Below the pieces are notes generated by a model that had not been told where the DNA came from, ran no database searches, and saw nothing but the letters and a program-made list of their open reading frames with translations. A stretch of DNA of 64,000 nucleotides from Glycomyces artemisiae (GTDB lineage Bacteria > Actinomycetota > Actinomycetes > Mycobacteriales > Micromonosporaceae): assembly GCF_003002955.1 (NCBI RefSeq), contig NZ_PVTJ01000010.1:1-64000 (forward strand), written 5' to 3'. Each line of letters starts with the position of its first letter. Positions within the stretch are counted from its first letter, which is position 1. A program made the position numbers and the translations under genes. This document shows positions 21,155 to 24,086 of the stretch, piece by piece.

Positions 21155-21161
21155 CGAGCAG

Positions 21162-21192
21162 AACGGCCCGGTCCGCAGTGGACCGGGCCGTT
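21162..21192 (+). terminator. terminator after the beta-lactamase-like pair
   Basis: AACGGCCCGGTCC (21162-21174) pairs perfectly with 21180-21192 around GCAGT. It is directly followed, without a spacer base, by the 52-bp palindrome at 21193-21244. Confidence 0.85.
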
Positions 21193-21244
21193 CCCTATAT
21201 CCTATATCCTATATCCTATAGGATATAGGATATAGGATATAGGG
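21193..21244. repeat. perfect 52-bp palindrome of 7-bp units
   Basis: Each 26-base arm is CCC followed by three TATATCC-type heptamers and TA; the two arms are exact reverse complements with no central spacer. It is strikingly AT-rich for this genome and lies between two convergent genes, touching the ahcY stop codon at 21245. It can fold as a long hairpin on either strand, so a bidirectional terminator is one reading; a protein-binding site or repeat expansion is another. Confidence 0.9.
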
Positions 21245-22690
<1,446 letters not shown>

Positions 22691-22831
22691 GCCTGAAATG
22701 CTACGCGCCGGCCCCTGGGCCCCAGCTGAACGGGACCGTGGCGCCGCGCACGCGACACGCCGGGCGCGGGGCTCCTGGGGCGCCCGTGGCAGGCGACACG
22801 GAAAAAAATTTGCCGCAACCGCTGTTTCTGC

Positions 22832-22859
22832 TTGACACTGCTGAGGCGGTGGGTAATAT
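22832..22859 (+). promoter_or_regulatory. strong sigma70-type promoter
   Basis: TTGACA (22832-22837) and TAATAT (22854-22859) are separated by 16 bases, the best -35/-10 pair I noticed in the window. It points rightward, with initiation expected near 22866, and drives the leader region ending at the 22948 terminator. It also lies about 140 bases upstream of divergent ahcY. Confidence 0.75.
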
Positions 22860-22865
22860 TGCAGA

Positions 22866-22985
22866 TACGCAGCGTCACGGAGATGCGGGAATCCACCGGG
22901 TTCCAGACCATTTCCGCAGGCGCCACGGGGAAACCAAACCGGGGGGAGTGCCGGGCGGTCTGGGGTGGCCGCCCGGCACATTTTT
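22866..22985 (+). ncRNA. candidate leader or small RNA between ahcY and the GNAT gene
   Basis: About 120 bases lie between a consensus promoter and an intrinsic terminator. Inside, TGCGGGAA (22882) can pair with TTTCCGCA (22911) as a stem enclosing a GC-rich arm, followed by a purine-rich linker and the terminator. No start codon with a Shine-Dalgarno sequence is evident. It could be a free small RNA, or an attenuator or riboswitch for the acetyltransferase gene whose start is 70 bases past the terminator. I could not match it to TPP, FMN, cobalamin, SAM, SAH, glycine or ydaO consensus elements. Confidence 0.5.
22948..22985 (+). terminator. intrinsic terminator or attenuator upstream of the GNAT gene
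   Basis: GTGCCGGGCGG (22948-22958) pairs perfectly with 22969-22979 around a 10-base loop and is followed by ATTTTT, a textbook rho-independent terminator and rare in such GC-rich DNA. It lies upstream of, not after, a protein gene, which is why the preceding 80 bases are suspected to be a regulatory or stable RNA. Confidence 0.88.
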
Positions 22986-23054
22986 GCCCCGATTGGCAAG
23001 CGCTGTCATCAAATTCGTTTGCGCGCCGCCCTCCACATGGGGGAGGGTCAGGGC

Positions 23055-24086
23055 GTGAGCAACCCTGACATCGAGATCGTCCCGATCGATCCTCTCGACC
23101 GCGACCTGGTCGACGGCTGGATCGAAGTCGAGCGCGCCGTGTACGAGCACGACAACCCCGGCACGCCCCAGAGCAGGCCCGCCCTCCAGCGCCTCCGCCT
23201 GCTCCTGTACCCCGCGGCGATCCGGCCCGAGCGGTACGCGGCCGTCTCCGGCGGCACCGTCGTCGGCTACGTCGAGCTCGTCACCTTCCTCACCGACAAC
23301 CAGCACCTCGCCGCGCTTGAGCTGCTCGTCCACCCCGACCATCGCCGCCGCGGCGTCGGCACCGCGCTCCTCGAACACGCCGAGCGCCGCGCCGCCGAAC
23401 TCGGCCGAGACACGCTCCTGTCCGCAGTCACCGACTCCCTCGACGGCGCCCCCAAGCAGGACCACGCCGGGCAGCACTTCGCCGCCGCCCGCGGCTACAA
23501 GACCGTCGACCAGGAGATCCACCGCCGCAACGACCTCTTCGCCGTCGACGACGACGAACTCGCCAAGCTCTACGTCAGCGCCTGGGAGCACGCCGCGGGC
23601 TACGAGCTCGTGCAGTGGATCAACCACGCCCCCGACGACGTCGTCGAAGGCGTCGCCGCCATGCGCCAGCGCATGTCCACCGACCCGCCCATGGGCGAGG
23701 AGCTCGACATGCGCCCCTCCGTCTACGACGCCGAGCGCGTCCGCGACGAGGAGCGCACCTTCACCGCCCGCGGCCAGCTCCAGCTCGCCGCCGCGGTCCG
23801 GCACGTCGAGAGCGGCGAGATCGCCGGGCTCACCGACATCCTCGTGTTCCCCGGCGACGAGGAGCACGCCGGGCAGAACGACACGACCGTCGACCCCGCG
23901 CACCGCGGCCACCGCCTCGGCACGATCCTCAAGATCGCCAACCAGCGGGCGCTGCGCCAGTACCGGCCCAAGCTCCGGTACGTGCACACCTGGAACGCCG
24001 AGTCCAACGATCACATGATCGCGATCAACGAGGCCGTCGGCTATCGGGCCCTGTGCAGGGACCTCGACGTCCAGAAGAAGCTCTAG
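23055..24086 (+). CDS. tandem GNAT acetyltransferase
   Basis: The 343-residue protein contains two GNAT folds. The N-terminal one has the acetyl-CoA loop HPDHRRRGVGTALLEHAE (about residues 95-112); the C-terminal one has DPAHRGHRLGTILKIANQ and ends with WNAESNDHMIAINEAVGY. Tandem GNATs include mycothiol synthase, but the motifs here differ and the substrate is unknown. The GTG start follows GGGAGGGTCAGGGC. The upstream promoter-terminator pair suggests that expression is controlled by attenuation. Confidence 0.85.
   Translation: MSNPDIEIVPIDPLDRDLVDGWIEVERAVYEHDNPGTPQSRPALQRLRLLLYPAAIRPERYAAVSGGTVVGYVELVTFLTDNQHLAALELLVHPDHRRRGVGTALLEHAERRAAELGRDTLLSAVTDSLDGAPKQDHAGQHFAAARGYKTVDQEIHRRNDLFAVDDDELAKLYVSAWEHAAGYELVQWINHAPDDVVEGVAAMRQRMSTDPPMGEELDMRPSVYDAERVRDEERTFTARGQLQLAAAVRHVESGEIAGLTDILVFPGDEEHAGQNDTTVDPAHRGHRLGTILKIANQRALRQYRPKLRYVHTWNAESNDHMIAINEAVGYRALCRDLDVQKKL

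Follow-up and report, generated by a model that had tools for sequence, protein, structure and literature searches.

The unit between ahcY and a GNAT-type acetyltransferase gene in the window (the whole stretch of 64,000 nucleotides analysed here) probably encodes a stand-alone trans-acting small RNA (sRNA) of the Micromonosporaceae/Glycomycetaceae lineage with a housekeeping-type promoter, as judged from sequence comparison. It is very likely that the unit is a real independent RNA, and it is quite likely that this RNA would act in trans. The features of the locus are listed in Table 1.

Table 1. Features of the predicted RNA gene and its neighbours (positions of the window).
Feature	Position	Strand	Details
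ahcY (S-adenosylhomocysteine hydrolase)	21245..22690	-	ORF; divergent neighbour of the RNA
A/T tract, possibly an UP element	22802..22810	+	about 57-65 nt before the RNA start; putative function
Promoter of the RNA	22832..22859	+	-35 TTGACA 22832-22837; 16-nt spacer; -10 TAATAT 22854-22859
sRNA gene	22867..22985	+	A22867 through the T run as the predicted transcript; both ends are predictions
5' domain	22872..22923	+	P1 22872-22876/22919-22923; P2 22878-22885/22909-22916; P3 22888-22894/22898-22904
Linker	22927..22947	+	GGGGAAACCAAACCGGGGGGA; largely unpaired, most constant part
3' hairpin and U tract (intrinsic terminator)	22948..22985	+	stem 22948-22979; ATTTTT 22980-22985
GNAT-type acetyltransferase	23055..24086	+	GTG start; label from the first reading; upstream element AATTCGTTTGCG 23012-23023

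Promoter, ends and extent of the predicted RNA gene

An earlier note on this DNA had proposed a sigma70 promoter (TTGACA-16-TAATAT), a discrete non-coding unit of about 120 nt, and a rho-independent terminator at its end. The promoter was confirmed. It has 10 of 12 consensus matches and was the top-scoring site in the 4 kb scanned for promoters, where 3 promoter-like sites were found versus 0.2 expected; two of the three are this promoter in two registers. A/T tracts like the one upstream were also seen by eye at the same place before the RNA in the genus loci.

The conserved sequence of the RNA begins at ACGCAGCGT, and the covariance model R1 located the RNA core at 22867-22948. The model rests on 51 loci, namely 7 of the genus set of 22 plus 44 others, with L080 and the unrelated pattern match L075 excluded. 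The predicted 5' start is ACGCAGCGU, which would give an RNA of about 110-120 nt. CTTGAC was found 36 nt (55 loci) or 37 nt (5 loci) before ACGCAGCGT in 60 of 61 loci (22 from the genus and 39 others), in a search of 35 to 38 nt that allowed up to three mismatches in the 5' end; the distance in L074, which was missed by the script, is also 36 by eye. This fixed distance suggests that the conservation of the RNA begins where transcription is expected to start.

The terminator also stood, although its stem has 13 pairs (11 of them G-C) and not the 11 bp of the earlier note. The terminator scan of 4 kb gave 3 terminator-like sites versus 1.0 expected, and two of these overlap at the RNA end. Within the genus, the hairpin loop TCTGGGGTGG is constant and the stem is 100% paired in 22/22 loci, where both-sided changes occur at 2 pairs. 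Across genera, the ten outer levels of the hairpin are paired in 51/51 loci with several pair types per level, a figure that arises partly by construction because the script chose the longest stem. At least four T within 8 nt past the hairpin were found at only 20 of the 51 loci, and termination is therefore less certain outside Glycomyces.

The in silico evidence of a promoter and a terminator-like end of its own supports the proposed discrete unit. Mechanical ORFs overlap this unit; however, many of the lengths found between the 5' end and the linker are not divisible by three, which indicates that no protein is conserved across it. A coding gene was rejected on this ground, and the earlier view that no plausible protein gene lies between the promoter and the terminator was borne out, as no conserved reading frame was found there.

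Distribution and predicted fold

The BlastN search with positions 22800-23000 gave matches in 22/22 Glycomyces genomes (own genome included) and in 37 of 61 genomes overall. The matches beyond Glycomyces were short and mostly within query positions 127-183, and the weakest of them may be chance. The genome of the window has one RNA copy. A core pattern (up to two mismatches) matched 147 of the 200 family genomes, representing 36 of the 44 genera, whereas the reversed-pattern control gave 0. As a rule there is one match per genome, with two each in G071, G167 and G170; the two copies in G170 (contigs 6 and 12) are exact. At least 4 of the 147 matches (G091, G110, G139 and G187; loci L060, L061, L063 and L038, respectively) lie at sites that look unrelated and lack both promoter and 5' end, and true diverged copies in G091 and G187 were retrieved by a later search.

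With model R1, diverged copies (E<=0.0012) were retrieved from 17 of another 27 family genomes. These 27 include 25 of the 53 genomes that lacked a pattern match. Pattern and model combined place the RNA in 40 of the 44 genera. Among 298 genomes of the order, 53 were matched by R1, all in the family of the window; the filters of this search were stricter, and diverged copies, for example in genus g51, escaped them as well. In permissive searches of 24 genomes from other families and 40 from the class, the best E beyond the family was 0.034. A scan of named genomes for the promoter, 5' end and core matched at least 119 stretches; among the 80 stretches listed, 79 have titles that we take to be Micromonosporaceae or Glycomycetaceae, and the remaining one is an actinomycete MAG. 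The contig end of G222 (genus g4) cuts the RNA at L154, where an apparent sequencing-adapter end in the assembly was seen by eye.

Searches for a mobile-element origin gave nothing full-length: one plasmid match covered 42% (E 0.3), and 88 phage records matched, with 28 bases at E 0.03 among the matches listed. A mobile element was rejected on this basis.

The presence in 40 of 44 sampled genera with a hardly changing core suggests that the RNA probably does something important. The family is rich in antibiotic producers, and Micromonospora, Actinoplanes and Dactylosporangium are among the matched names. To our knowledge, few sRNAs have been characterised beyond Streptomyces and the mycobacteria, and we know of no Hfq in actinomycetes. 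The RNA is simple to delete and test in laboratory strains and offers a handle on sRNA regulation in actinomycetes.

The predicted RNA has a minimum free energy (MFE) of -62.8 kcal/mol (z -4.31), and 0 of 200 shuffles were as low. Its anatomy includes a compensated 5' stem-loop, an unpaired linker, and a compensated 3' hairpin. For P1 and P2, 80.7% of the cells are paired family-wide versus 75.1% in shuffles (0/500 as high), and 8 of 9 pairs are changed on both sides somewhere, versus 5.2 in shuffles (equalled by 7/500); slid controls drop to 15-65% paired. In the genus alignment A2, a 33-pair structure that includes the 3' hairpin is 93.5% paired, versus 89.4% in shuffles and at most 52.7% in slid controls, with 8 pairs changed on both sides versus 4.9 in shuffles (equalled by 1/500); this structure was drawn from the window's own MFE fold and is hence somewhat favoured. 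RNAalifold returned just two invariant pairs on the family alignment, because the middle of that alignment is hard to align.

The internal stem TGCGGGAA/TTTCCGCA, which had been put forward as a sign of structure, is present in the window; however, it is poorly kept in the genus. Its cells are 63.7% paired versus 59.2% in shuffles (0/500 as high), and its covariation score was equalled by 27 of 500 shuffles, whereas the rival 33-pair fold reaches the higher pairing given above. It was therefore rejected as a supported structure.

The linker sequence CAAACCGGGGGGA is identical in 51/51 rows of alignment A1 and in 60/60 loci of the neighbour-class count, figures that are biased because the loci were retrieved using sequences or patterns containing CAAACCGGGGGGA. 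Copies retrieved by the covariance model alone differ in the linker, and CGGGGGGA is by eye its steadiest part.

Neighbouring genes

Ligand- or RNA-dependent attenuation of the acetyltransferase gene had been suggested from the terminator that precedes it. A GNAT relative is the next co-directional gene after the RNA in 22/22 genus loci; whereas none was found (tblastn, 1e-10) in 40 loci from other genera, so that among the loci examined GNAT follows in Glycomyces only. Moreover, GNAT has a separate conserved upstream element, AATTCGATTGCG, with at most one mismatch in 16/22 and at most three in 20/22 genus loci. Where RNA and GNAT are farther apart, this element remains on the GNAT side. The absence from the 40 loci and this element of its own speak against the suggestion; GNAT attenuation was rejected on these grounds, and such an attenuator is highly improbable. 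By pattern, five of the 22 genus loci (L010, L012, L013, L019 and L020) have an extra stretch (GGTCCCCC..GGACTACC.GC) between the RNA hairpin and GNAT; L021 resembles them by eye.

The divergent ORF on the other side was named by recognition, and we take it to be ahcY. Relatives of ahcY adjoin the RNA in many genera; ahcY is divergent in Glycomyces, and outside this genus the RNA lies mostly between manA and ahcY. Among 38 loci (40 fetched from other genera minus L075 and L080), 25 have ahcY co-directional and within 400 nt 3' of the RNA, 4 have it at a greater distance and 4 in divergent orientation, and in the other 5 it was not found within 5 kb. L080 carries an RNA-like unit, and neither manA nor ahcY was found within the fetched stretch. 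Between ahcY and the preceding convergent gene of the window is a perfect 52-bp AT-rich palindrome (21193-21244) composed of 7-bp units (CCTATAT), directly after a 14-bp G/C-rich inverted repeat (21161-21193). The sequence ATATCCTATATCCTAT (up to one mismatch) occurs 18 times in the genome, and its reversed control, itself nearly the same repeat, occurs 25 times.

The 25 co-directional loci would suit a cis-acting ahcY leader (riboswitch or attenuator) that came along during rearrangement of the locus. At L084 the ahcY start is 37 nt past the hairpin, so the RNA may be an ahcY leader there; and riboswitch control of ahcY in some other organisms is described in the portion of PMC2864571 used here. 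However, the 5' end and the linker are equally kept where ahcY is divergent or not found and where the next gene is convergent, apart from a diverged linker in L136. The 5' end retains a mean of 8.0-8.8 of 9 consensus bases in each neighbour class (classes assigned by hand, two loci unclear). A convergent manA is next after the RNA in L078, L085, L095 and L136 (four genera), which leaves no cis target there. A TAnnnT box belonging to ahcY (often TAAGGT) is usual past the hairpin and was seen by eye in at least 18 of the 25 loci, and the RNA gave no SAM or SAH riboswitch match. No constant co-directional downstream gene, as for a cis-acting attenuator, was found across the loci. An ahcY leader is thus quite unlikely, and since the RNA is conserved whatever gene comes next, action in trans is favoured.

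Possible action of the linker and comparison with known RNAs

Transcription would begin near A22867 and end in the T run (22981-22985), and the RNA would expose ACCAAACCGGGGGGA between the two hairpins. As the constant unpaired part, the linker is the likely contact site. This G-rich sequence might pair with C-rich mRNA sites (UCCCCCCGGUUU-like) or be bound by a protein; both fit such a contact, and the odds of base pairing rather than protein binding are put slightly below even.

The linker complement (up to two mismatches) was searched in 12 genomes, and 34 matches were found versus 9 for the reversed control. The RNA itself accounts for 12 of the 34, and the remaining 22 are still somewhat commoner than the 9 control matches. 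Inspection of 18 of these 22 sites revealed 6 where an ORF in sense orientation lies at the site or closely follows it, and no related genes recurred among the 18. One candidate target is a secreted-protein gene (L176/L310) on contig 4 of the own genome (about 235,475-235,750), which has CCCCGGTTTGGTCGAGA before its start codon; the complementarity to the RNA linker extends to some Glycomyces species only. Relatives of the gene were found in 21 of 22 genus genomes. Their predicted duplexes with the RNA have -30.2 to -31.5 kcal/mol in 4 of the 21, -22.6 to -26.0 in 3, and -11.2 to -21.3 in 14, in a set where the extraction missed the start codon in at least 4 loci. For comparison of the RNA with 37 gene starts of the window, the best value was -25.9, with ahcY and GNAT entered at wrong, 5'-most starts.

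A protein- or polymerase-binding RNA (Ms1/6S-like or a decoy) overlaps the trans-acting sRNA proposed here and differs only in the mode of action, as its linker would be a protein site and not an antisense seed. The linker is little changed over about 40 genera while the rest drifts, which suits one constant partner. Ms1, also an actinobacterial sRNA (6S-like), went undetected in Glycomycetales in a published search based on synteny, according to the part of PMC9130861 available, which is in favour of such a role. However, the RNA has no Rfam match and is not Ms1 itself: in the same part of that source, Ms1 is located in intergenic regions >300 nt beside a HAD hydrolase gene, whereas the present RNA is about 115 nt with ahcY, manA, GNAT and others as neighbours. 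Ms1 was ruled out by these neighbours and the unit size, and protein binding as the mode of action is rather doubtful. The near-invariant AAACCGGGGGGA linker might also touch one universal partner, such as RNA polymerase, the ribosome, or an RNA chaperone still to be discovered in actinomycetes. The RNA would then be a core family-wide regulator with global rather than single-mRNA action, which we consider unlikely.

The search of Rfam 15 with the whole window gave 0 matches at the gathering threshold, and a permissive scan of 401 bases around the RNA gave sub-threshold matches only. The relatives gave no Rfam match either, in agreement with the earlier statement that the element fits no known riboswitch. 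The SAH riboswitch and any other Rfam 15 family were rejected, with no score at the gathering threshold. No published description of the RNA was found in the open-licence literature; as only this literature was covered, the RNA may appear in other sources as a transcript without a name.

The RNA (CGGGGGAACCA...GGGG.GA) shows by eye a short likeness to the 5' half of the c-di-AMP riboswitch (ydaO/yuaA, RF00379), judged against the two copies of the own genome; whereas the second half of the riboswitch is missing from it. The RF00379 covariance model gave no match for the window element (E up to 10) or its relatives (E up to 1). Two c-di-AMP riboswitches of the own genome (L034 and L035; contigs 4 and 1) were over the cut-off, which indicates that the model performs properly here. 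An origin from half a c-di-AMP riboswitch was rejected, the resemblance being short and by eye only.

The SAH and SAM-Chlorobi leaders of ahcY, as far as they are covered by the part of PMC2864571 consulted, adjoin ahcY as does the present RNA; whereas the latter has no Rfam match and is kept also without a downstream ahcY. Intergenic sRNAs of the scr5239 type belong to another lineage, and no Rfam family matches the present RNA. Nevertheless, the Streptomyces scr5239 is, in the sections of PMC4365011 drawn on here, likewise a short non-coding RNA kept in one lineage.
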